The notes beneath the pieces were generated by a model. The model searched no databases, was not told the DNA's origin, and saw nothing but the letters and a program-made list of their open reading frames with translations. From Trueperaceae bacterium (lineage in GTDB: Bacteria > Deinococcota > Deinococci > Deinococcales > Trueperaceae): DNA of 45,457 nucleotides. Both the position numbers and the translations under genes were made by a program. Positions 91-40,012 of the stretch are shown here, one piece after another (the stretch's first letter is position 1; every line of letters begins with the position of its first letter). The DNA lies in assembly GCA_019454765.1 (NCBI GenBank), contig JACFNR010000001.1, positions 1 through 45,457 of the forward strand, written 5' to 3'.

Positions 91-1722
91 ATGTCGGCTC
101 TGTACCAACGGGCGCGGCCGGTCACCTTCGACGAGGTCGTCGGGCAGGACCACGTCAAGGACGTGTTGACGTCCGCCATCGCGCGCTCCCGCGTCGGCCA
201 CGCCTACCTCTTCTCCGGGCCCCGCGGCGTCGGCAAGACCACGACGGCCCGCCTCCTCGCCATGGCGGTCAACTGCGAGGCTCCCGCCGCGGAGCGGCCT
301 TGCGGCCGGTGCGAGTCGTGTCGGCTGGTGCAGGCCGGGTCTCACCCCGACGTGGTCGAGCTCGACGCCGCCTCGAACAACTCCGTCGAGGACGTGCGCG
401 ACCTGCGCGAGCGCGTCATGTTGACGAGCATGCGGGGCGGCACGCGGGTGTGGATCCTCGACGAGGCGCACATGCTCAGCAAGGCCGCCGCCAACGCCCT
501 CCTCAAGACGCTCGAGGAGCCGCCGCCCGGCCTGGTGTTCGTCCTCGCGACGACGGAGCCGGAGCGCCTACCGCCAACCGTCCTGTCGCGCTGCCAGCAC
601 TTCCGGTTCAGGCGCCTCACCGACGACGAGATACGGGGCAAGCTGGCGCGCCTCGCGAACGCCGCCGGGGTGGCGGCCGAGACGGCCGCGCTCGACCTCG
701 TGGCCCGGAGCGCCGACGGCGGCATGCGCGACGCAGAGTCGCTCCTCGAGCGGCTCTTGGCCTCCGGCGAGGCGGTCACCCTCGTCCGCACGGAGGACGC
801 CCTGGGCCTGCCGCCTCACGAGCGGCTGCGGGCGATGGCGTCGGCCCTGGCGAACGGCGACCTGGCCTCCCTGCTGGCGGAGGCAGACGCCCTCTACCGC
901 GCCGGCTTCGCTCCGCGGACGGTGGCGGACCAACTGGCGCGCAGCCTACGCGGCGCCCTCCACGCCCTGCTCGCCGGCGAGCCGTGGCTGGCAGCGGGCG
1001 AGGACGACCTGCTGAGGTTGCTGCACGCCCTCGACGACGAGCAGGAACGCTTCGTGCGCCACGACGACCTCTACTCCCTCGAGGTCGCCCTCATCAAGGC
1101 GCGTAACGCCCTGCTAGGGAACGGGCCTGCGGCGGGCGCCGCGGTCGCGGCGTCCGCGGCGGCGGCCGCCGCGGCGGGCGCCGTGGCGGACGGCGTCATG
1201 CCCGTGGCGAGGGGCGCGGTGACCGGGACGGTGGGCGAGACGGCGAGCGAGACGGTGGGCGAGGCCGTGTCCGGGGACGCGACCGGCCCTGCCGTCGCGC
1301 GCCGCCGTCCGAGCGGCAGCACCCCCCGCGCCGCCGGGGCCGAAGCGCCGCCCTCGGGCGGTGCTCGCGGGGCCTCCCCGGAGCCGGACGCCGCTCCCGG
1401 CGGGGACCCCGCGCAGGTCCCTGCTGACGGGGAGCAGGTCGGTCAGTTCTCCTGGCACGCGGTGCGCAGCCAGGCCGACGTGCGCCTGAAGGCCTTCCTG
1501 GCGCCGGTGCGCGTGGAGCACTCGGGCAGCGCCGTGCGCGTGACGTTCCCCGAGGCGAACGAGTTCCACCACAAGCAGTTGATCATGCGCCTGGCCGCGT
1601 TCGAGGAGCTGCTGACGGCCGTCGTCGGTCCCGGCTTCGACGTCACCATCGATGGCCCGGCGGGCACCTCGCGCTTCACCACGAGCGGGAGCACCCGAGG
1701 GGGCGGTCCAAAAAAAGCGTGA
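91..1722 (+). CDS. dnaX: DNA polymerase III gamma (0-frame product of dnaX)
   Basis: Clamp-loader ATPase subunit of DNA polymerase III (543 aa). It loads the sliding clamp with the delta and delta' subunits. The N-terminal AAA+ domain has a Walker A motif (GPRGVGKTT, about residues 43-51), a four-cysteine zinc module (Cys62, 71, 74, 77), and a Walker B segment ending DEAHMLS. A three-helix collar region follows, then an Ala/Gly-rich linker from about residue 350. A short folded segment (about 450-530) resembles tau/gamma domain III-IV. The 0-frame stops at 1720-1722, just after an A7 run, and a long open frame continues in -1, so this product is best read as gamma. The ATG at 91 fits the family N-terminus. 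The order dnaX-ybaB-recR is conserved in many bacteria. Confidence 0.95.
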   Translation: MSALYQRARPVTFDEVVGQDHVKDVLTSAIARSRVGHAYLFSGPRGVGKTTTARLLAMAVNCEAPAAERPCGRCESCRLVQAGSHPDVVELDAASNNSVEDVRDLRERVMLTSMRGGTRVWILDEAHMLSKAAANALLKTLEEPPPGLVFVLATTEPERLPPTVLSRCQHFRFRRLTDDEIRGKLARLANAAGVAAETAALDLVARSADGGMRDAESLLERLLASGEAVTLVRTEDALGLPPHERLRAMASALANGDLASLLAEADALYRAGFAPRTVADQLARSLRGALHALLAGEPWLAAGEDDLLRLLHALDDEQERFVRHDDLYSLEVALIKARNALLGNGPAAGAAVAASAAAAAAAGAVADGVMPVARGAVTGTVGETASETVGEAVSGDATGPAVARRRPSGSTPRAAGAEAPPSGGARGASPEPDAAPGGDPAQVPADGEQVGQFSWHAVRSQADVRLKAFLAPVRVEHSGSAVRVTFPEANEFHHKQLIMRLAAFEELLTAVVGPGFDVTIDGPAGTSRFTTSGSTRGGGPKKA

Positions 1723-1753
1723 CGGGGCAGGCGGCGCCTGGCCCCGAGGTCAC
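1697..1753 (+). promoter_or_regulatory. Programmed -1 frameshift signal in dnaX
   Basis: All three parts of a classic bacterial -1 signal are present. The slippery heptamer A AAA AAA lies at 1710-1716, in phase with the 0-frame lysine codons 1711-1713 and 1714-1716. A Shine-Dalgarno-like GAGGGGG is at 1697-1703. After a 7-nt spacer holding the 0-frame UGA (1720-1722), a stem pairs 1724-1728 with 1741-1745 and 1729-1732 with 1736-1739. It can be extended by 1719-1723 with 1749-1753. Slippage puts the ribosome into a 256-codon open frame. E. coli dnaX uses the same architecture (A AAA AAG). Polymerase slippage on the A7 run, as reported in Thermus, would give the same product. Confidence 0.85.
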
Positions 1754-2489
1754 GGAGCGCGGCCCGCTTCCCACCGCCTCGCCCGCGGCGCCGCGGTCGG
1801 CGCCCGCCAATGCGGCCGGCCCGCAGGCACCGGCCGCACCGGGGGCCGCTGGTCGCGGCGCGGGACGCGGCGCGGGACGCACCGCGGGACGCAGCGCAGG
1901 ACGCGATGCGGTCGCCGCGCCCGACCGCGCCGGGGATCACGGCGCGGCCCCACGCCCACAGGCGGCCGGCGCGGACCGCCCCCCGCCTCCACAAGCGAGC
2001 CCACCAGGAGCGAACCCACCGGAGGTGGGCGACCTAATCCCCGACGACGTCGTCTCCTCGGCGGGCGGGGGTACCGGGGACCTGTGGGGGGAGCCTTGGG
2101 GCGAGCCGCCCGTCGAGCCTTGGGAGGACGAGGCGCGCACCCCCCAGGCGGCCGCGGTGTCCACAGCTGACCCGGCCGCTGGCCCGGCCGCCGCCCCCGC
2201 TCAGACCAGGGCCGCCGGCCGGGCGCGCTCGGCCGCGAAGCGGCAAGGGGGCGGCGCGCGCTCCGAGCGGCGGGGCGCGGCGGGGTCGGCGCACGGTCGC
2301 GGACCTGTCGACAGCGACACACCCCAGGGCAAGGCGTTCGCGGAGGTCGTGGCGCTCTTCCCCGGCCGCGTGATCGAGGTGTTGCCGCTCGGCCGCCCCC
2401 CGGACACCGACGACAAGGGCACCGGCGACGAGACCGAAGCGCCGTTCGCTGCCGGTTACGATGACCCCATGGAGGCGGGCTCCGAGTAG
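1716..2489 (+). CDS. dnaX: dnaX tau-specific C-terminal extension (-1 frame)
   Basis: This frame is reached by -1 slippage at 1710-1716: the next codons are AGC (1716), GTG (1719), ACG. It adds Ser plus 256 residues to the first 542 of gamma, giving a tau of about 799 aa. About the first 200 added residues are low complexity, rich in Ala, Pro, Gly and Arg, and read as a flexible linker. The end is more protein-like (KAFAEVVALFPGRVIEVLPL near the C-terminus, then an acidic tail). It could be the part that contacts the polymerase alpha subunit or the helicase, as tau domains IV-V do in E. coli. No Shine-Dalgarno sequence or good start codon opens this frame independently. The coding reading is inferred from the frameshift signal and the long open frame. 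Confidence 0.75.
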   Translation, partial: SVTGQAAPGPEVTERGPLPTASPAAPRSAPANAAGPQAPAAPGAAGRGAGRGAGRTAGRSAGRDAVAAPDRAGDHGAAPRPQAAGADRPPPPQASPPGANPPEVGDLIPDDVVSSAGGGTGDLWGEPWGEPPVEPWEDEARTPQAAAVSTADPAAGPAAAPAQTRAAGRARSAAKRQGGGARSERRGAAGSAHGRGPVDSDTPQGKAFAEVVALFPGRVIEVLPLGRPPDTDDKGTGDETEAPFAAGYDDPMEAGSE

Positions 2490-2922: not shown

Positions 2923-3525
2923 TTGAGCGTCCGCTTCCCAGGTCCGCTCCTGACCCTCATCCGCGAGCTCGGGCGCCTGCCGGGGATCGGTCCCAAGAGC
3001 GCACAACGCCTCGCGTTCCACCTCTTCAACCGCCCCGAGGCCGAGGTCAGGGCGCTGGCAGAGGCGCTCGTCGAGGCCAAGACCGGCCTGGCGCGCTGCC
3101 CGATCTGCTACAACGTCATGAGCGCCGACGCTGACTGCTGCGCGGTGTGCGCCGACGCGCGCCGCGACCGCGGCCTGCTCTGCGTCGTCGAGCAACCGGC
3201 CGACCTGCTCGCCATCGAGCGCTCCGGCGAGTTCCAGGGGCTCTATCACGTCCTCCACGGCGCCCTCAGTCCCATGAACGGCGTCGGGCCCGATCAGCTC
3301 ACCATCGCGGCGCTCGAGCGCCGGGCGGCGGGGCTGCGCGAGGTGGTGCTAGCCACCTCCACCACCGTGGAGGGCGAGGCGACCGCGCACTACCTGGCGC
3401 GTCAGCTGGCGCGAAGCGGCGCGACCGTCAGCCGCATCGCCTACGGACTGCCGGTCGGTGGCGACCTGGAGTACGCAGACGAGGTCACGCTGGGGCGCGC
3501 CATCAGCAACCGCCGCCCCGTCTGA
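2923..3525 (+). CDS. recR: Recombination mediator RecR
   Basis: RecR (200 aa, the usual length) works with RecO to load RecA on gapped DNA. An N-terminal helix-hairpin-helix (LGRLPGIGPKSAQRLAFHL) is followed by a four-cysteine zinc finger (CPIC...CAVC). A Toprim domain starts at LLCVVEQPADLLAIE, and the C-terminal Walker B-like segment is followed by the family ending (IAYGLPVGGDLEYADEVTL). The start is TTG at 2923, preceded by GAGGGG at 2910-2915; it gives the expected N-terminus. recO lies in the same window at 6873, so both RecA-loading partners are encoded within 4 kb. Confidence 0.95.
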   Translation: MSVRFPGPLLTLIRELGRLPGIGPKSAQRLAFHLFNRPEAEVRALAEALVEAKTGLARCPICYNVMSADADCCAVCADARRDRGLLCVVEQPADLLAIERSGEFQGLYHVLHGALSPMNGVGPDQLTIAALERRAAGLREVVLATSTTVEGEATAHYLARQLARSGATVSRIAYGLPVGGDLEYADEVTLGRAISNRRPV

Positions 3526-26396: not shown

Positions 26397-27523
26397 CCGC
26401 CCTCGACCACGACGCCAAGTCGACCGCCGCGAACCACCGGGGCGGCGACCGCGGCGTCGAGGTCGGTGCTGCGCTCGCGCGCGGGGCGCTCACGCTCGGT
26501 GGCGGACTCGTCGGCTTCCTGCTCGGCAGCCTGCTCGTCGGGCGCGGCGTGCTGTCCGGCCCTAACAACCTGCTCTTCCTCACCATCGTCGGGGTGCTCT
26601 CCGGTTACCTCTTCAGCGCGCCGGCAGCGCGCCGGTTCGGGGCGGCCTGGTCGCGCCTCATGGCGCGCCTCACCCGGGTGAGACCCGACGTCGTGTTGGC
26701 GGCGCTGGCCGGCGCCACCCTGGGGCTCCTCGTGACCGTGCTCGTCAACAACATCCTCGCCAACGTGCCCGGCTTCACCTGGTACTGGTCGCTTTTGGTG
26801 GCCGTGCTGCTGGTGGCGGGCCTGGGCGGCTTCTTCGTCGCCAACCGGCGGCTCCTGCCGCTACCGTCGGCGGACGGCCGCCGTCCCTACGGCGCCGCGC
26901 GTGGCACGCACGACAAGGTGGTCGATAGCTCGGCCGTCATCGACGGGCGGCTGCTCGCCGTCCTCGAGTCGAACTTCCTCGAGGGGCGGCTGGTGCTCCC
27001 TCACTTCGTCTTGACCGAGATCCAACGCATCGCGGACTCCGACGACCAGTTGAAGCGGCAGCGCGGCCGGCGCGGGCTCGAGACGCTCGACCTGCTCGCC
27101 GCGCAGCAGGGCGTGGTCACCGAGGTGGCGCACGACGACGTGGGCAAGGGGCCCGTCGACGACAAGCTGGTCCGCCTCTGCCTGGAGCGTGACGCCGACC
27201 TCATCACCACCGACTACAACCTCAGCCGCGTCGCCGCCTTGCAGGGGGTGCGGGTGTTGAACCTGCACCAACTCGCGAGCGCCGTCAGGGTCGCCTACCT
27301 ACCGGGCGAGCGCCTGGCCCTGAGCATCGTCCGGCAGGGCCGCGAGCACGGGCAGGGCCTCGCCTACCTGGAGGACGGCACCATGGTGGTCGTCGAGGAG
27401 GCGGGCGAACTCGTTGGTAACACGATCGACGTGATCGTCACGTCCAGCTTGCAGACCAACATGGGGCGCATGCTCTTCGCCAAGCCCGCCGATCACCCAG
27501 ACCGCCTTGACACGGCACCCTAG
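26393..27523 (+). CDS. PIN/TRAM-domain membrane protein (YacL-like)
   Basis: A 376-aa protein with four predicted transmembrane helices in the first 160 residues, then a PIN nuclease domain and a C-terminal TRAM RNA-binding domain. PIN acidic residues are visible in VVDSSAVIDGR, VLTEIQRIADS, VDDKLVRLCLERDADL and ITTDYNLSRVAAL. The TRAM part runs from RQGREHGQGLAYLEDGTMVV to the end. A membrane-tethered RNase or toxin-like role is inferred. clpC-radA-PIN/TRAM order is shared by Firmicutes and Deinococcota, where ispD often follows; here a tRNA follows. The ATG overlaps the radA stop by 4 nt. Confidence 0.9.
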   Translation: MTALDHDAKSTAANHRGGDRGVEVGAALARGALTLGGGLVGFLLGSLLVGRGVLSGPNNLLFLTIVGVLSGYLFSAPAARRFGAAWSRLMARLTRVRPDVVLAALAGATLGLLVTVLVNNILANVPGFTWYWSLLVAVLLVAGLGGFFVANRRLLPLPSADGRRPYGAARGTHDKVVDSSAVIDGRLLAVLESNFLEGRLVLPHFVLTEIQRIADSDDQLKRQRGRRGLETLDLLAAQQGVVTEVAHDDVGKGPVDDKLVRLCLERDADLITTDYNLSRVAALQGVRVLNLHQLASAVRVAYLPGERLALSIVRQGREHGQGLAYLEDGTMVVVEEAGELVGNTIDVIVTSSLQTNMGRMLFAKPADHPDRLDTAP

Positions 27524-27537
27524 CCCCGACGTACTCT
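27507..27537 (+). promoter_or_regulatory. Putative promoter of tRNA-Ala
   Basis: A perfect TTGACA at 27507-27512 overlaps the end of the PIN/TRAM gene, and TACTCT lies at 27532-27537, 25 nt before the tRNA. The 19-nt spacer is longer than ideal. Confidence 0.5.
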
Positions 27538-27562
27538 CAGGGCGCCCGGCTCAGGCGCGCGT

Positions 27563-27638
27563 GGGGCCTTAGCTCAGCTGGGAGAGCGTTCGCTTTGCAA
27601 GCGAGATGTCGCCGGTTCGAGTCCGGCAGGCTCCACCA
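27563..27638 (+). tRNA. tRNA-Ala (anticodon TGC)
   Basis: A 76-nt tRNA. The acceptor GGGGCCT pairs with AGGCTCC and holds the G3-U70 pair that defines alanine. The anticodon stem TTCGC/GCGAG frames the loop TTTGCAA with TGC at 27596-27598. The T arm is GCCGG/CCGGC with TTCGAGT. Discriminator A and CCA are encoded. Confidence 0.97.
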
Positions 27639-27974
27639 ACGGCGCGGCCTCGTGCCCCCGGCCCCTCGGCCGGGGGCACGGTCGTGAGGAGGGGGTCGCC
27701 GCCGCGGCCCCTTACACCGCCGCGGCGGCGCGGACCGTGGCGTATCACCCTGTTCACCGCCCCGCCAGGCTCTAGCATCTGACAACCGAACGCGCGTCTG
27801 TCACGCCCTTGGGAGGGGGAACGCGGCGGCGGGGGCCGGGACGTTGGTCCCGAAAGGGCCGGAAACCGGTTTGTGATAGATTGTGCCAGGTTCTCATGCG
27901 GTACTAACCGCGCTGAACGCGTTTGTGCGGGCCGGAGCGGGCCCGCGCCTCATAAGGAGGTCGATCCGAGCATC
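27639..27974. other. Gene-free stretch upstream of the act operon
   Basis: No convincing protein gene. It holds a terminator-like hairpin after tRNA-Ala (27651-27680) and a TGATAGATT extended -10-like element at 27874-27882. Three TTGTG repeats lie at 27871, 27881 and 27923. A 7-bp hairpin (27927-27933 with 27940-27946) lies just before the strong Shine-Dalgarno at 27954-27960. TTGTGC (27881) and TACTAA (27902) could also be a promoter, with a short 15-nt spacer. These are likely the control region of actA-F. Confidence 0.5.
27651..27680 (+). terminator. Hairpin after tRNA-Ala
   Basis: A perfect 13-bp stem (27651-27663 with 27668-27680) with a CCTC loop, 12 nt after the tRNA. There is no T tract, so either termination does not need one or the hairpin mainly protects the 3' end. 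Confidence 0.7.
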
Positions 27975-28079
27975 ATGAGCGTCGAATCTAGTCGGCCAAC
28001 ACCCTCACGTGGATCGTGGCCGTGTCCCACAGTCTCGGCCATGCACCGCCCCGGGAAGCGCGCTGAGGTACCTGTCTGA
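27954..28079 (+). CDS. Possible 34-codon leader frame upstream of actA
   Basis: AAGGAGGTCGATCC starts at 27954. Apart from one extra C it matches the full complement of the 16S rRNA 3' tail (AAGGAGGTGATCC). Seven bases later ATG 27975 opens a 34-codon frame ending TGA at 28077-28079, which overlaps the actA ATG by one base (TGATG). The peptide (MSVESSRPTPSRG at its start) resembles nothing I know. It uses A/T-ending codons such as GAA, TCT, AGT, CCA, ACA and CGT, unlike its neighbours. It could be a leader peptide that couples translation into actA, or a non-coding leader with a strong ribosome site. Confidence 0.4.
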   Translation, partial: KEVDPSIMSVESSRPTPSRGSWPCPTVSAMHRPGKRAEVPV

Positions 28080-28737
28080 TGCCGCAGTTCTTCCCTCCGA
28101 ACTCGAACGCGTTCGTAACGTGGGCCGTGTGGGGTGGAGGCGTCTTCGCCGTGCTCATGCTCATCGCCCTGCCGTTCTACGCGCGCGTGACCAACAACAA
28201 CGTCGGCGTCCCCGTGGCGCAACCGATCGACTACCCGCATAACCTCCACGTGGTGCAGGTCGGGCTCGACTGCCGCTTCTGCCACACGACCGTGGAGACC
28301 TCGAACACGGCCTCGGTGCCCCCCACCGAGACCTGCATGGGTTGCCACTCGCAGCTGCGCGTCAACACGCCGCAGCTCCAGAACGTGGTGGACTCGTGGA
28401 ACAGCGGGACGCCGATCCAGTGGAACCGGGTGCACGAGCTGCCCGATTTCGTCTACTTCAACCACAGCGTCCACGTGAACAACGGAGTGGGCTGCAGCAG
28501 CTGTCACGGGCGCGTGGACGAGATGGCACAGATCTGGAAGAACGAGCCCATGACGATGGGTTGGTGCCTGGAGTGCCACCGCAACCCGGAGAAGGCGCTG
28601 CGGCCCGTTAGCGAGGTCTTCAACATGGCGTACGAGCCCTTGCCCGAACCGACGGCGCAGCTGGCGCTGGGGGCAACCCTCGTGGAGCAGTACCACATCG
28701 ACACCGACAAGCTCATCCAGTGCTCGACGTGCCACCG

Positions 28738-28741
<4 letters not shown>
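28079..28741 (+). CDS. actA: Alternative complex III pentahaem cytochrome ActA
   Basis: The pentahaem c-type cytochrome subunit of alternative complex III (220 aa). One N-terminal transmembrane helix (GGGVFAVLMLIALPFYARV) anchors it, with the haem domain on the outer side. Five CxxCH sites are present: CRFCH (Cys65), CMGCH (86), CSSCH (139), CLECH (163) and CSTCH (215). Length and haem count match the ActA family. GAGG at 28065-28068 is 10 nt before the ATG, which also overlaps the stop of the upstream leader frame. The gene overlaps actB by 4 nt. Confidence 0.93.
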
Positions 28742-31721
<2,980 letters not shown>

Positions 31722-31722
<1 letters not shown>

Positions 31723-33161
31723 TGGCGGTAACCGCCGGCAAGCCCAAGGTGCCCTTCCGGGAGACGAACCGCGTCATCCGGCCGGGCGAGACCTACGGGG
31801 GGATCGACGACGCCGTACTGACGCCGGTGCTGGCCACCGTCGAGAAGACGCCCCTTTGGTGGTGGATCGGCTTCGGCATCTCCGCCACCGTGCTGGTGAT
31901 GTACCTCGTGTCGGTGGTCAAGCTGATCACGACCGGCATCGGCATCTTCGGGAACAACATCCCCGTCGCCTGGGGGATGCCCATCATCAACTTCGTCTGG
32001 TGGATCGGCATCGGCCACGCCGGGACGCTCATCTCGGCCGCGCTGCTCCTCTTCCGCCAGCCGTGGCGCACGACCGTCAACCGCTTCGCCGAGGCCATGA
32101 CGATCTTCGCCGTCGTCTGCGCGGGTCTATACCCCATCCTCCACTTGGGAAGGCCCTGGGTCTTCTACTGGCTCGTGCCGTACCCGAACACCATGGGCCT
32201 GTGGCCGCAGTTCCGCAGCCCGCTCGACTGGGACCTGTTCGCCATCGGCACCTACTTCACGATCTCGGTCGTCTTCTGGTTCATCGGCCTCATCCCCGAC
32301 CTGGCCACGCTGCGCGACCGGTCCAAGACGAAGTTCCAGCAGTTCGTCTACGGCATCTTGAGCCTCGGCTGGAACGGCTCGACCAAGGCGTGGCAGCGCT
32401 ACCAGCGCGCCTACCTCCTCCTGGCGGCTCTGAGCTTCCCCCTCGTGCTGAGCGTGCACTCGACCATCGCCATGGACTTCGCCGTGGCCCAGCTGCCGGG
32501 CTGGAACAACACCATCATGCCGCCCTACTTCGTGGCGGGCGCCGTGTTCGCCGGCTTCGCCATGGTGCTCATCCTGGCGGTGCCGCTGCGCAAGGCGCTC
32601 AGGCTCGAGCACCTCATCACGCTCCGTCACCTCGACAACGCCGCCAAGCTGATGCTGGCCACCGGCATGATCGTGGTGTACGGCTACTTCATCGAGATTT
32701 TCACCGCCTGGTACTCCGGCGTGGAGTTCGAGCGCTACATGATCTGGAACCGCATGTTCGGGGACCACGCCATCTTCTTCTGGGCGCTGATCTTCTGCAA
32801 CTTCGTGGCCATCCAGCCCATCTGGTTCCGCCAGGTGCGCCAGAGCCCGTGGGCGCTCTTCATCATCGCCATCATCGTCAGCGTGGGCATGTGGCTCGAG
32901 CGGTTCGTGATCTTCGTGGTCTCGTTGACCAAGGACTTCCTGCCCTCGTCGTGGGCAGACTACGTGTCGACCGTCTGGGACTGGTCGCTGTTCATCGGTA
33001 GCCTCGGCCTCTTCTCCACCCTGTTCTTCCTCTTCATCCGACTGCTGCCGTCCATCGCCACGGCCGAGACGAAGGAGACTGCCTTCCACGATCACCATCA
33101 CGGCAGCGACGCCTTCGAGCTCGCCCGCATGAAGTACTTCAACGCGGAGGAGCCGGCATGA
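31722..33161 (+). CDS. actC: Alternative complex III quinol-binding subunit ActC
   Basis: A NrfD/PsrC-like integral membrane protein (479 aa) with about ten transmembrane helices. In alternative complex III this subunit carries a quinol site and probably a proton path. Recognisable stretches are VAWGMPIINFVWWIGIGHAG, ILHLGRPWVFYWLVPYP and VLSVHSTIAMDFAVAQLPGW. The C-terminus is cytoplasmic and His-rich (DHHHG). GGGAG at 31711-31715 is 6 nt before ATG 31722, which overlaps the actB stop by one base. It overlaps actD by 4 nt. Confidence 0.94.
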
Positions 33162-33727
33162 GCAGCGTCACGCTCGGACGCAACGCGGCGGCACCGGCCC
33201 CGGCCCTCTACGGCCTGGTGGCTCAGTTCGACAGCGTGGAGGCGATCAGGGAGGCGGCGACGCGCGTGCGCAACGCCGGCTACACGAAGATCGACGCCTA
33301 CACGCCGTTCCCCGTCGAGGGGCTCGACCTCGACCTCGGCATGAAGCCCACGCGCCTCGGCTGGGTCGTGCTCATCATGGGCATCCTCGGCGGCCTCGGC
33401 GGCTTCTGGATGCAGTGGTGGGCCAACACGAACTACTACGCCATCAACATCGGGGGCAAGCCGTTCAACAGCTGGCCGAACTGGATCGTCATCATGTACG
33501 AGTGCACCATCCTGTTCGCGGGCCTGACCGCCGGCATCTTCATGATCGTGCGCAACGGCATGCCGCGGCCCTACCACTCGATCTTCAACACGCCGGGTTT
33601 CGAGAACGCCATGCGCGACCGCTTCTTCCTCTGCATCGAGGCGAAGGACCCGAAGTTCGACCTGGCCGCCACCCGCGCCCTCCTCGAGGGGCTCGAGCCG
33701 CTCGTCGTGTCGGAGGTGGAGAAGTGA
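33158..33727 (+). CDS. actD: Alternative complex III subunit ActD (DUF3341)
   Basis: A small membrane subunit (189 aa) of the DUF3341 family. An N-terminal soluble part (LYGLVAQFDSVEAIREAATR then GYTKIDAYTPFPVEGL) precedes two transmembrane helices (LGWVVLIMGILGGLGGFWMQ and IVIMYECTILFAGLTAGIF). The Y-T-P-F-P motif is conserved in the family. Its role in the complex is structural as far as is known. It is flanked by 4-nt overlaps on both sides. Confidence 0.92.
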   Translation: MSSVTLGRNAAAPAPALYGLVAQFDSVEAIREAATRVRNAGYTKIDAYTPFPVEGLDLDLGMKPTRLGWVVLIMGILGGLGGFWMQWWANTNYYAINIGGKPFNSWPNWIVIMYECTILFAGLTAGIFMIVRNGMPRPYHSIFNTPGFENAMRDRFFLCIEAKDPKFDLAATRALLEGLEPLVVSEVEK

Positions 33728-34317
33728 GCCGCCGCAGGCTGCGCCTCCTCGCCGTCGCCGCCATCGGCGCGCTGCTCCTGAGCGCCTGCGGTCGCAACAT
33801 GTACGACCAGCCGAAGGCCAAGGCGTTCCAGTCGTCGCCCTTCTTCGCCGACGGCTCCGCCATGCGGCCGCTGCCGACCGGGACGGTGTCGCGCGAGTTC
33901 GGCGCGCTGGAGCCCACGTACCTGACGGGCCTCGGGCCCAGCGGGTTCGTCAGCGAGCTGCCGGTCGAGCTGACCGCGGACCTGCTCCTCAGGGGCCAGG
34001 AGCGGTTCGACATCTACTGCTCGCCCTGCCACAACTACAACGCCGACGGGCGCGGCGCCACCGTCCTGAAGGGTTTCCCGCAACCGTCCGACTTCACCAC
34101 CACCCAGCGCCTGCTCGACGCGCCGGTGGGGTACTTCTTCAACGCCATGACGAACGGCTTCGGCCGCATGTACAGCTACGCGTCGCGCGTGCCGGTCGAG
34201 GACCGCTGGGCCATCGCCGCGTACATCAAGGCGCTGCAGCTCAGCCAGAACGCCGCCATAGCCGACGTGCCGGCCGGCGCGGCGCTGACGAGCTCGACCA
34301 CGGAGGCCAACCGATGA
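33724..34317 (+). CDS. actE: Alternative complex III monohaem cytochrome ActE
   Basis: A 197-aa lipoprotein cytochrome c. The signal peptide ends in LLLSAC, a lipobox, so the mature protein is lipid-anchored outside the cell membrane. Haem binding is CSPCH at Cys99, inside RGQERFDIYCSPCHNYNADG; GFPQPSDFTT follows as in other ActE proteins. MYDQPKAKAFQSSPFFADG after the lipobox is also typical. GTG 33724 overlaps the actD stop by 4 nt (GTGA). It probably passes electrons from ActA outward. Confidence 0.93.
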   Translation: MSRRRLRLLAVAAIGALLLSACGRNMYDQPKAKAFQSSPFFADGSAMRPLPTGTVSREFGALEPTYLTGLGPSGFVSELPVELTADLLLRGQERFDIYCSPCHNYNADGRGATVLKGFPQPSDFTTTQRLLDAPVGYFFNAMTNGFGRMYSYASRVPVEDRWAIAAYIKALQLSQNAAIADVPAGAALTSSTTEANR

Positions 34318-35510
34318 CTCCGCTGAAGCTACCGCCCATCGACACCGCCAAGGCGCAGATGGCCGGGTTGGTCATCGGCGGGGCCGCGCTGGCGGCGGCC
34401 GTGATCCTCGGCTTCACGGGCCGCGCCGACGGCTTCTTCCAGTCGTACCTGGTGAGTTACCTGTTCTGGGCCGGCCTGTCGATCGGCTCGCTCGCACTGC
34501 TGTTCCTCGTGCACCTGGCGGGCGGCTCGTGGGGCGCCCTCATCGTGCGGCCGCTGGAGGCGGCGGCCAGCGCCGTGCCTCTCTTCGCGCTCCTGTTCGT
34601 GCCGATCATCCTCGGCATGGGCCGGCTCTACCCCTGGACGGACGCGGCCTACGTGGCGTCGCAGCCCACGGTGGAGGCCAAGACGCTCTACCTGAACACC
34701 GCCTTCTTCATCGTGAGGGCCGTGGTCATCTTCGGGATCTTCACGCTCGGGGCACTGCTCTACCGCAACCTGAGCAAGCGCCAGGACGCCCAGGCCGCCG
34801 GTCCCGACGCCGAGCGGACCGGCTACCGCATGAAGAACCTGTCCGGCCTCTGGTTCGTGGTGTACGTCCTCACCATGACCTTCGCGGCGTTCGATTGGGC
34901 CATGTCGCTGACCCCCACCTGGTTCTCGGGCATCTACCCGGGCATCATCATGGCGGGTCAGGTCGTGTCGGCGCTCGCCCTGATGATCCTGGTGATGGTG
35001 AACCTCTCGACCAAACACCCCACCATCGACAAGCTGTTCACCCCCAAGCGGCAGCAGGACCTCGGCAACCTGCTCATGGCCGTGATCATGTTCTGGGCCT
35101 ACACGCAGGTGTCGCAGCTGATCATCCAGTGGTCCAACAACGTGGTGGAGACGGCCAGCTGGTACGTCGTGCGCTTCGACCCCACCTGGATCGGGCTCTC
35201 CGCCTTCATCCTGTTCTTCGGCTTCTTCGCGCCGTTCATGATCCTCTTCTCCCGCTGGGTGAAGCGCACGCGGCGCGCGCTGTCGATCGTGGCCGTGTGG
35301 GCGCTCATCGTCCAGTTCATCAACTACTTCTGGTTCGTTGTCCCCGCCTTCGACCGGCCGGGGTTCCAGTTCACCTTCCTCGACCTGCTCCTCCTGGTGG
35401 GCCTGGGAGGCGTGTGGGTGGCGGCGTACGCGCGCGCCCTGGCAGGCCGCAACGTGCTGCCCGCCAACGACCCGCGGCTCGTGAAGGTGGTGGCCGACCA
35501 GCATGCCTGA
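34314..35510 (+). CDS. actF: Alternative complex III membrane subunit ActF
   Basis: A 398-aa integral membrane protein with about ten transmembrane helices, distantly similar to ActC. Recognisable stretches are SYLFWAGLSIGSLALLFLVH, TFAAFDWAMSLTPTWFSGIY and LLMAVIMFWAYTQVSQLIIQ, the last a hallmark of ActF. ATG 34314 overlaps the actE stop by 4 nt, and its end overlaps the next gene by 8 nt. Family knowledge places it next to ActC in the membrane. Confidence 0.94.
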   Translation: MTPLKLPPIDTAKAQMAGLVIGGAALAAAVILGFTGRADGFFQSYLVSYLFWAGLSIGSLALLFLVHLAGGSWGALIVRPLEAAASAVPLFALLFVPIILGMGRLYPWTDAAYVASQPTVEAKTLYLNTAFFIVRAVVIFGIFTLGALLYRNLSKRQDAQAAGPDAERTGYRMKNLSGLWFVVYVLTMTFAAFDWAMSLTPTWFSGIYPGIIMAGQVVSALALMILVMVNLSTKHPTIDKLFTPKRQQDLGNLLMAVIMFWAYTQVSQLIIQWSNNVVETASWYVVRFDPTWIGLSAFILFFGFFAPFMILFSRWVKRTRRALSIVAVWALIVQFINYFWFVVPAFDRPGFQFTFLDLLLLVGLGGVWVAAYARALAGRNVLPANDPRLVKVVADQHA

Positions 35511-36354
35511 GCAGAACCGCAGGTACCTGATAAGCGAGAAGCAGATCCGCCTGGCCGTGTTCCTCGGCACCGTCGGCATGATCGTGGCGGTCGCGGTGCT
35601 CTTCTTCCTCGCCACGTCGAGGCCGAAGGGCTCGTTCCAGGTCCTCGACGGTGCGGCGTTCCAGCAGCAACTGGACGCGGCCGTGGCCAGCATCACCGGC
35701 TACGAGGACCTGGGCGGCGGGAAGGCCCGCATCGACATCAACCGCGCCATGGAGCTGGTGGCGCAGCGCGGCGTGGAGGACCCCGGGTTCTTCACGGCGG
35801 CGGCCCCCGCGCCCGCGGCGGCGGCGCCCACGGCGGCGGCGCAGGAGGCGCCCGCCGCGTCGGCGCCAACGGGAGCGGCGCCGGCGGGAGCATCGTCAAC
35901 CGGTGAGGCGGCCGCCGGTGAGGCGGCCGCCGGCACCGGGGCGACGCAGGTGGCGGCCGGTCCGGACGGCGAGGCCCTGTTCGTGAGCACCTGCTCCGCC
36001 TGTCACCAGGCGAGCGGCCAGGGCATCCCGTCGGCGTTCCCGCCCTTGGCCGGTCACGCGCCCGACCTCTACAAGGCTGACCGCGACCTGCCGCTCGAGA
36101 TCGTCGTCTTCGGCATGCAGGGGCAGATCACGGTGGCCGGCACGGCCTACAACGGCGTCATGCCGGACCACCTGCGCCTCGAGGACGCCGCCATCGCCGC
36201 CATCCTGGATCACGTGATGACCGCGTGGGGCAACGACGCGAACCTCCCCGCGGACTTCGAGCCGTACACCGCCGACGACGTCGCCGCTGTGCGCGCCAAG
36301 ATGCTGACGATGGGCGAGGTGCATGACGCACGGGCGGCGGCCGGCCTCGACTGA
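35503..36354 (+). CDS. Membrane-anchored monohaem cytochrome c
   Basis: A 283-aa protein with one N-terminal transmembrane helix (LAVFLGTVGMIVAVAVLFFL). A small domain with DINRAMELVAQRG follows (about residues 70-90), then an Ala/Pro/Gly linker of about 60 residues (about 99-157). The C-terminal cytochrome c has CSACH at Cys164 and a likely axial Met220 in VMPDH. It is the last gene of the operon and overlaps actF by 8 nt. It could shuttle electrons from the complex to an oxidase encoded elsewhere. The RAME-L-x-x-RG segment recalls small proteins linked to haem-copper oxidases; that link is from memory. Confidence 0.85.
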   Translation: MPEQNRRYLISEKQIRLAVFLGTVGMIVAVAVLFFLATSRPKGSFQVLDGAAFQQQLDAAVASITGYEDLGGGKARIDINRAMELVAQRGVEDPGFFTAAAPAPAAAAPTAAAQEAPAASAPTGAAPAGASSTGEAAAGEAAAGTGATQVAAGPDGEALFVSTCSACHQASGQGIPSAFPPLAGHAPDLYKADRDLPLEIVVFGMQGQITVAGTAYNGVMPDHLRLEDAAIAAILDHVMTAWGNDANLPADFEPYTADDVAAVRAKMLTMGEVHDARAAAGLD

Positions 36355-36392
36355 GTAGCCGGCCGCGCACCAGCGGCACGCAGCAGGCACAC

Positions 36393-36442
36393 GGGGAGGG
36401 CCCCGCGCGACGGTTCGCGCGGGGCCCTCCCCTTCTCGTTCT
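36393..36442 (+). terminator. Rho-independent terminator of the act operon
   Basis: A perfect 17-bp stem (36393-36409 with 36416-36432) with a six-base loop is followed by TTCTCGTTCT. It lies 38 nt after the last cytochrome gene and 27 nt before the end of the convergent gyrB. Confidence 0.88.
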
Positions 36443-36468
36443 CGGCGCCCGGAGAGGGCGCCGATGGT

Positions 36469-38574
<2,106 letters not shown>

Positions 38575-38653
38575 TCGATTTTGAGCGTCCAGGACAGGTT
38601 TTATGCCCACTTCGACACGGCCCTTCGGCTTGCGTCCGCGGCTTGGCGAGGCC

Positions 38654-40012
38654 TCAGGTCCGCGTCTGCCCCTCGCCGTCCACCAGGTACTTGTAGGTGA
38701 CCAGCTGCTCGAGCCCCACCGGGCCGCGCGCGTGCAGTTTCTGCGTGCTGATGCCGATCTCTGCCCCGAAGCCGAACTCGAAGCCGTCGGTGAAGCGCGA
38801 CGAGGCGTTCACCACGACCGCGGCCGCGTCCACCTCGCGCCGGAAGCGCTCGGCGCGGCCCAGGTCGCGGGTAAGGATGACCTCCGTGTGCTGCGTGCCG
38901 TAGCGCGCGATGTGACCGAGCGCCTCATCCAGGCTCGGCACGACCCGCACGGCCAGCTCCAGGCCGAGGAACTCCTCCGCCCACTGCGCCTCGCCGGCCG
39001 GCTCCATGTCGGGCACCAGCGCCCGGGCGGCAGCGCAACCGTACAGGCGCACGCCCTCGGCCCGCAGCCTGCCCGCGGCCGCGGGCAGGAAGGCGGGCGC
39101 CTCGGCCTCGTGGACCAGCAGGGTCTCGATGGCGTTGCAGACGCCGGGGCGCTGCACCTTGGAGTTGAGCACGATGGCGAGCGCCGATGGGAGGTCGGCG
39201 CCCTCGTCGACGTAGAGGTGACAGTTGCCGACGCCCGTCTCGATGACCGGCACCCGCGCCGTGTCGACCACGTGCCTGATGAGCCCGGCGCCGCCGCGCG
39301 GGATGACCAGGTCCACGTGGCCGCGGGCCCTGAGCAGGGCCGTGACCAGCTCGCGGTCGGGCGAGTCGATCAGTTGCACGGCGTCCGCCGGCGCCCCCGC
39401 CTCCGCCAGGGCGCCTCGCATCAGGTCGACGAGGGCCCGGTTGCTGGCGAGGGCGTTGGAGGATCCGCGCAACACGGCGGCGCTTCCCGCCTTGAGGGCG
39501 AGCACGGCAGCGTCGACCGTGACGTTCGGGCGCGACTCGTACACCATGCCGACGACCCCGAACGGCACCGTCACGCGCCGCAACCGCAGCCCCCGCTCGG
39601 TCTCCCACCCCGCCAACACCCTGCCGAGCGGATCCGGTAGGTCGGCAACCTGTTCGACGGCCCGCGCCATCGCCTCGAGGCGCTCGGGGGTGAGCGTGAG
39701 GCGGTCGACGAGAGCGGCGCTCGTCCCCCGCTCGCGCTCCGCCGCCACGTCGGCGGCGTTGGCCGCCAGCACCGCCGCCGCCCCCGCCCGCAGGGCCGCC
39801 GCCACGGCGAGAAGCGCGGCGCGCCGGTCGGCCGCCTGGAGCCGACGGGCGGCCGTGCGGGCGGCGGCGAGCAGGGGCGCGAGCGCGGCGTCCGCCGCCG
39901 ACGCGGCGCCCGCGCCGGGCGCCGTCCCGGTCCCCCTTACCGGCGCCCCACCGCCCGCGACTCCCCCGTCGGCGGTCCGCACGACCTCGCTCCCTGCAGC
40001 GTCGACGTTCAT
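38654..40012 (-). CDS. proA: Gamma-glutamyl phosphate reductase
   Basis: The second step of proline synthesis: NADPH-dependent reduction of glutamyl-5-phosphate (452 aa). The family motifs are VPFGVVGMVYESRPNVT, KAGSAAVLRGSSNALASN, VIPRGGAGLIRHV, and the catalytic Cys in KVQRPGVCNAIETLLVH. EFGFGAEIGISTQKLHARGP closes the protein. A Gly/Ala-rich N-terminal extension of about 38 residues precedes the domain; the ATG at 40012 is kept because a TATAGT box lies 5 nt before it. proB is not nearby. Confidence 0.94.
   Translation of the reverse strand: MNVDAAGSEVVRTADGGVAGGGAPVRGTGTAPGAGAASAADAALAPLLAAARTAARRLQAADRRAALLAVAAALRAGAAAVLAANAADVAAERERGTSAALVDRLTLTPERLEAMARAVEQVADLPDPLGRVLAGWETERGLRLRRVTVPFGVVGMVYESRPNVTVDAAVLALKAGSAAVLRGSSNALASNRALVDLMRGALAEAGAPADAVQLIDSPDRELVTALLRARGHVDLVIPRGGAGLIRHVVDTARVPVIETGVGNCHLYVDEGADLPSALAIVLNSKVQRPGVCNAIETLLVHEAEAPAFLPAAAGRLRAEGVRLYGCAAARALVPDMEPAGEAQWAEEFLGLELAVRVVPSLDEALGHIARYGTQHTEVILTRDLGRAERFRREVDAAAVVVNASSRFTDGFEFGFGAEIGISTQKLHARGPVGLEQLVTYKYLVDGEGQTRT

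Follow-up and report, generated by a model that had tools for sequence, protein, structure and literature searches.

The window, meaning the whole stretch of DNA that was analysed (45,457 nucleotides, GC ~73%), comes from a Trueperaceae draft genome of 93 contigs. Positions 27001-39000 have a GC fraction of 0.67-0.69 and a shifted skew, compared with 0.71-0.77 in the rest of the window. An open reading frame of 543 amino acids occupies positions 91-1722 of the forward strand and is identified as dnaX by NCBIfam models NF011524 (677 bits) and TIGR02397 (348 bits); ybaB (2553-2879), recR (2923-3525) and a topoisomerase-like open reading frame lie downstream. The product of this 0 frame, the predicted gamma, would contain the AAA+ ATPase, the lid, domain III and most of the DnaX_C domain. 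The DnaX_C-like domain itself (amino acids 455-519; 1453-1647, forward strand) scores 22.3 bits in Pfam, below the cut-off of 26.2, and its placement with respect to the A run is unchanged in relatives.

The 3' end of the 0 frame reads CCA AAA AAA GCG TGA (…GGGPKKA-stop) and holds the predicted shift site, the slippery heptamer A_AAA_AAA, at 1710-1716 of the forward strand. An earlier note on this DNA had placed the heptamer there in the correct phase, and the coordinates check. The stop TGA (1720-1722) stands one codon further on, after GCG. This heptamer is the sole AAAAAAA on both strands of the window, for which dinucleotide shuffles predict a mean of 0.02. In the -1 frame, reading stays open over 1716-2489 of the forward strand, giving 257 amino acids before a TAG stop (2487-2489); the open frame that the earlier note had described is thus real, one codon longer than the 256 it gave. 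A shift at the heptamer would produce a predicted tau of 799 amino acids, with SVTGQAAPGPEVTER as the junction peptide in this organism. The DnaX_C-like domain lies 5' of the shift site, and would therefore be common to both products.

Conservation of the predicted shift site in Trueperaceae

Using an N-terminal DnaX query, dnaX was located in 35 of the 39 genomes of the family Trueperaceae. The survey of the site comprised 31 readable cases, drawn from the family dnaX DNA and further fragments; dnaX ends at a contig edge in G002, G014 and G034, and three members (G009, G012 and G029) have the two frames fused. The sites divide into A_AAA_AAA (16), A_AAA_AAG (12), a run of A9 holding A_AAA_AAA (G007), G_GGA_AAA (G024) and an A7 in phase 0 (G019). 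A_AAA_AAR is therefore present at 29 of 31 sites, and an in-phase X_XXY_YYZ heptamer at 30, the window included. A 0-frame stop (TGA, TAG or TAA) lies exactly one codon 3' of the heptamer at every site except G019. The five readable genomes of the window's genus fall in one supported clade and all share A7 and the layout, and the same sites were recovered in named public MAGs labelled Trueperaceae, Truepera, Deinococcales, Deinococci or Deinococcota. In G019 (L067) the sequence is CCG AAA AAA ATA GTC TGA, with stem and tail intact; tandem slippage on this phase-0 run would pair poorly, and the site does not fit standard-heptamer tandem slippage.

The earlier note had looked to related genomes for conservation of the A run and the stem, and had named a random A run or a missing open -1 frame in relatives as evidence against a shift. 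Comparison across the family did not refute the reading, and the heptamer is conserved together with a co-varying stem. This conservation places the site beyond chance. It also makes a homopolymer sequencing or assembly error, or a decaying gene, extremely improbable. Such an explanation could draw on the draft state of the window's genome and on apparent isolated indels in two relatives, but the same break recurs in 31 assemblies from many genera, including the single-contig G001, G017 and G021, and A6, A7, A9 and G3A4 all occur while the tail stays coding. The two indels lie elsewhere in the gene and may be assembly errors or real lesions: in G036 (L031) the indel falls within the tail and puts the tail motif out of frame, and in G061 (L151) it falls in the dnaX N-terminus, where the frame stops at codon 62.

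The tail in the -1 frame

Searched by itself, the tail had no match among Pfam or NCBIfam models, and with the tail included the spliced 799-amino-acid protein scored slightly lower on NF011524 (659 bits vs 677 for the 0-frame part), so the evidence for the tail lies in a terminal motif and in the fused relatives. The motif, KAFAEVVALFPGRVIEVLP in the window (2331-2387, forward strand), is found in the -1 frame in 30 of the 31 members, and fused relatives have it in their single frame. Its core, (L/V/I)F(P/A)G, stands near the end of the -1 frame at 30 of 31 Trueperaceae sites and can be summarised as LFPGRV; the version in G008, IFPGKF, fell outside the search pattern and was found by eye in the translated tail. 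The single-frame tau of other families ends with a homologous motif, e.g., LLGARLLWVRRP. This end of tau is part of the DnaX chain solved in PDB 4iqj, a structure from Thermus aquaticus in which the C-terminal region of tau is in complex with Pol III alpha and DNA.

Between close relatives it is mostly third codon positions, as read in the -1 frame, that change in the tail, and gaps between the closest pairs are only of 3n bases. Nonsynonymous change is also plentiful, as expected of a disordered linker. In the fused relatives the tail is joined to DnaX in different ways. G009 carries it in the 0 frame without an A run. G029 (L153) has TAAGAAAA in place of A7 (two changes) and an in-frame tail within which the contig ends; a strong 3' stem is still present there and is likely a relic. 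G012 (L032), an AT-rich member of the family, has tau in one frame with A9. The homology of the -1 tail to the C-terminus of single-frame tau, together with these three in-frame relatives, supports the predicted assignment of the 0 frame to gamma (543 amino acids) and of the -1 frame to tau, as the earlier note had proposed with a tau of about 799 amino acids. Two sequence features of reversed polarity are present: the tau C-terminal region in the -1 frame and a gamma stop directly past the shift site.

Flanking signals and the agent of the proposed slip

The sequence GAGGGGG, which the earlier note had pointed out upstream of the heptamer, was confirmed at 1697-1703 of the forward strand, 6 nt 5' of the heptamer. 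With the 3' end of 16S rRNA assumed to be CACCUCCUU, its anti-Shine-Dalgarno (aSD) duplex reaches -10.1 kcal/mol, stronger than at every control position in the gene. Across the family, mean aSD complementarity is highest where an 8-nt segment ends 6-8 nt 5' of the heptamer. It falls in the gene's top 5% at 17 of 31 sites and in the top 10% at 23; 14 sites lack a strong SD-like element. Spacing is 6 nt in the window and roughly 4-10 nt in the family, shorter than the 9-14 nt published for -1 stimulators (PMC5009743). As a comparison set, 20 genomes with single-frame dnaX and A8 or A9 were used, 19 from other families and G012. These also have an SD-like stretch of their own further upstream, near 12-15 nt, so part of the signal may reflect protein coding. 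The element is a likely, though not proven, stimulator.

The SD-like element also bears on the proposal that stop-start coupling yields the tail as a polypeptide of its own, since in the window it precedes a GTG (1719-1721) that overlaps the TGA (1720-1722) as GTGA. This proposal is very unlikely. An ATG, GTG or TTG overlaps the stop at only nine of 31 sites and no such overlap can exist at the nine sites with TAA or TAG, while the fused G009, G012 and G029 show the tail to be part of DnaX. Coupling would also leave the heptamer and its fixed place unexplained.

On the 3' side, a conserved stem-loop occupies 1723-1746 of the forward strand directly past the stop, with 1723-1728 paired to 1741-1746 and an inner helix of 1729-1732 with 1736-1739. 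The pairings in the earlier note (1724-1728 with 1741-1745, and the same inner helix) hold as to coordinates; the conserved part of the stem starts at C1723-G1746, 6 nt from the heptamer rather than the 7 nt it gave. It had further proposed an extension over the stop (1719-1723 with 1749-1753); these bases do pair, and in the minimum free energy fold they do so as 1718-1723 with 1749-1754 (1718-1754 overall, forward strand), but the extension is specific to the window rather than a family feature and is not evidence alone. The 41-nt fold of the window has z = -2.96 against shuffles. The window stem by itself is not significant, since 23% of the stretches of equal length in this gene fold equally well and 21% of the controls there match its anchored helix length. 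Single-sequence folding, ordinary against the local GC-rich sequence, was therefore dropped as proof of the stem in favour of an anchored family test, and the case for the stem rests on comparison across the family.

MAFFT left the 3' arms of the stems unaligned, and pairs were therefore counted from anchored helices, i.e., the longest helix with its 5' end fixed 6 or 7 nt past the heptamer, with other positions in the same genes as controls. The 31 genomes gave a sum of 247 pairs against 119 ± 8.5 in the controls (largest of 20,000 draws, 153), with genomes treated as independent and kinship ignored. Mean helix length rises from 2.6 pairs at +5 to 7.5 at +6, immediately past the stop, and 24 of 31 sites have at least six pairs. 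In the A8/A9 relatives, no helix of at least six pairs was found at +6, where the mean is 2.1. Stem pairs 3, 5 and 6 vary among several standard types across the family, including two-sided (compensatory) changes, and G008 has an unrelated stem sequence, yet a strong stem. The stem claimed as a signal in the earlier note thus stands on the family, the window's own copy being unremarkable.

Taken together, the sequences indicate that decoding of dnaX probably involves a programmed -1 ribosomal frameshift with reversed polarity, the 0 frame giving gamma and the slipped frame tau (probability roughly 0.88). Unshifted ribosomes would read A AAA AAA GCG TGA and release gamma. The SD-like duplex behind the ribosome and the stem-loop past the stop would keep the ribosome on A_AAA_AAA, and in some passages the two tRNA-Lys would re-pair one base back. 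The stop would then be passed out of frame and 257 more codons read to give tau, with a C-terminal tail that would be expected to serve as the tether for Pol III alpha. What the sequences show is the architecture of the site, with its conserved and co-varying parts, and a tail that is coding in character and homologous to that of tau; that the slip takes place on the ribosome, how efficient it is and what gamma and tau do in this organism we infer.

The main rival, which the earlier note had also raised, is that RNA polymerase slips on A7, so that some mRNAs carry A8 and yield tau by normal translation. It is kept here as an unlikely reading, ranked below ribosomal frameshifting. Polymerase slippage is established for Thermus thermophilus dnaX (PMC5009743; PMC1088944), and A8 or A9 stands at the same position of the gene in other families of the phylum. 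Antonov et al. considered it arguable even at the A7 found in Chlorobium phaeobacteroides (PMC3711429). It also fits G007 (A9) and G019 (A7, phase 0), and may act in some members of the family. The ribosomal reading is preferred on the length of the run, its fixed phase, the G_GGA_AAA site, the co-varying 3' stem and the lack of any sign of selection for a +1 stop. At twelve sites the run is just A6 with a G behind it, and at one it is G3A4; the latter, G_GGA_AAA, keeps a ribosomal slip site and loses the long A run that RNA polymerase would require. The phase is fixed in the family, and the conserved stem lies 3' of the run, still untranscribed while polymerase sits on it, whereas the known slippage-promoting stem is 5' adjacent and forms in the RNA exit channel (PMC5009743). 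Furthermore, slippage that inserts varying numbers of bases would be expected to favour +1-frame stops, a pattern that the A8/A9 relatives show. In the window this frame is open for 150 codons, and across the 31 sites for 4-288 (median 54), vs 0-10 codons in 19 of 20 A8/A9 relatives (Mann-Whitney p = 8e-8, genomes taken as independent). The family shows no sign of selection for a +1-frame stop.

Genes for both tRNA-Lys UUU and tRNA-Lys CUU are present in the genome that the window comes from and in most of the relatives examined. A 2016 review suggested that tRNA-Lys CUU lowers slipping on AAG (PMC5009743). The AAA site of the window avoids this problem, and the A_AAA_AAG sites of 12 members should be weakened by that argument. 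The idea that users of A_AAA_AAG lack tRNA-Lys CUU was not upheld, as most have both.

Evolution in Deinococcota and known dnaX systems

The A8/A9 single-frame relatives have runs in phases 0, 1 and 2, and with the exception of a single +1 frame both of their other frames reach a stop within 10 codons; judged by sequence, the other families of the phylum thus have the arrangement published for transcriptional slippage in Thermus. In a tree of the DnaX N-terminus, Trueperaceae form one clade (100/99) with single-frame families on both sides. The tree is rooted at the midpoint and the direction of change rests on parsimony, by which the simplest reading would be one change to the reversed form in the ancestor of the family, followed by about three losses. 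The closest company of G012 in the tree is G022 and G006, both A_AAA_AAG, so its single frame with A9 looks secondary, an apparent return to the slippage layout. On balance, the ancestor of Trueperaceae seems to have swapped polymerase slippage for a ribosomal -1 shift at an unchanged position in dnaX, with a reversal in which product is recoded. The heptamer would later have been exchanged among A_AAA_AAA, A_AAA_AAG and G_GGA_AAA, and some three lineages would have fused the frames, one of them going back to A9.

Such a series, with ribosomal signals, reversed roles and natural reversions in a relative of Thermus-type bacteria, could help to understand how a recoding mechanism comes to be replaced by a different one, and whether cells need gamma in the first place. 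A core replication protein, the long clamp-loader form tau, apparently depends on a programmed reading shift in nearly all sequenced Trueperaceae, and plain open reading frame calling would cut tau short across annotations of the family.

The dnaX gene is the classic case of one gene encoding two clamp-loader subunits by recoding, with Escherichia coli (ribosome) and Thermus (RNA polymerase) as its models. The site described here shares with E. coli the A_AAA_AAR heptamer and the stem-loop past a short spacer; an SD-like element also lies upstream in the window and most members, but at about 4-10 nt instead of the published 9-14 nt. The "textbook" label that the earlier note had applied suits these signals but not their polarity: the shift in E. 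coli gives the short gamma, the shift in Trueperaceae the long tau. Unlike that of E. coli, the site also lies 3' of the DnaX_C domain core. The resemblance to the A9 of T. thermophilus is one of place, between the DnaX_C domain and the terminal motif of the same gene, and the same two products are expected. The Thermus type has tau in one frame, A8 or A9 in any phase, stops in both other frames and no stem at a fixed place; the window has A7 rather than at least 8-9 A, and its tau is not in the template frame with near stops.

Reversed dnaX has been described before. GeneTack found 17 such genes in 12 genera (Antonov et al., 2013; PMC3711429), and a ribosomal reversed form has been proposed for a few bacteria, with C. 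phaeobacteroides named (Atkins et al., 2016; PMC5009743). These two-ORF genes share with Trueperaceae a 0-frame stop that ends gamma just past the A run and a tau that needs a -1 shift. Their runs are mostly A10 and were interpreted as transcriptional slippage, whereas Trueperaceae have A6-A7 or G3A4 in a fixed phase, together with a co-varying 3' stem, across a whole family of Deinococcota. Among 74 closed dnaX frames from a public-genome sample chosen by similarity to the query, the same layout occurs outside Trueperaceae only in L147. This uncultured Clostridia MAG has A10 just 5' of a 0-frame stop at 364 amino acids, and a 117-codon -1 frame. A literature search, whose coverage left out most subscription journals, found no paper on recoding of Truepera dnaX. 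Measured against the published cases, Trueperaceae appear to be a new, well-documented lineage of reversed dnaX rather than a new kind, with an unusually full comparative record.
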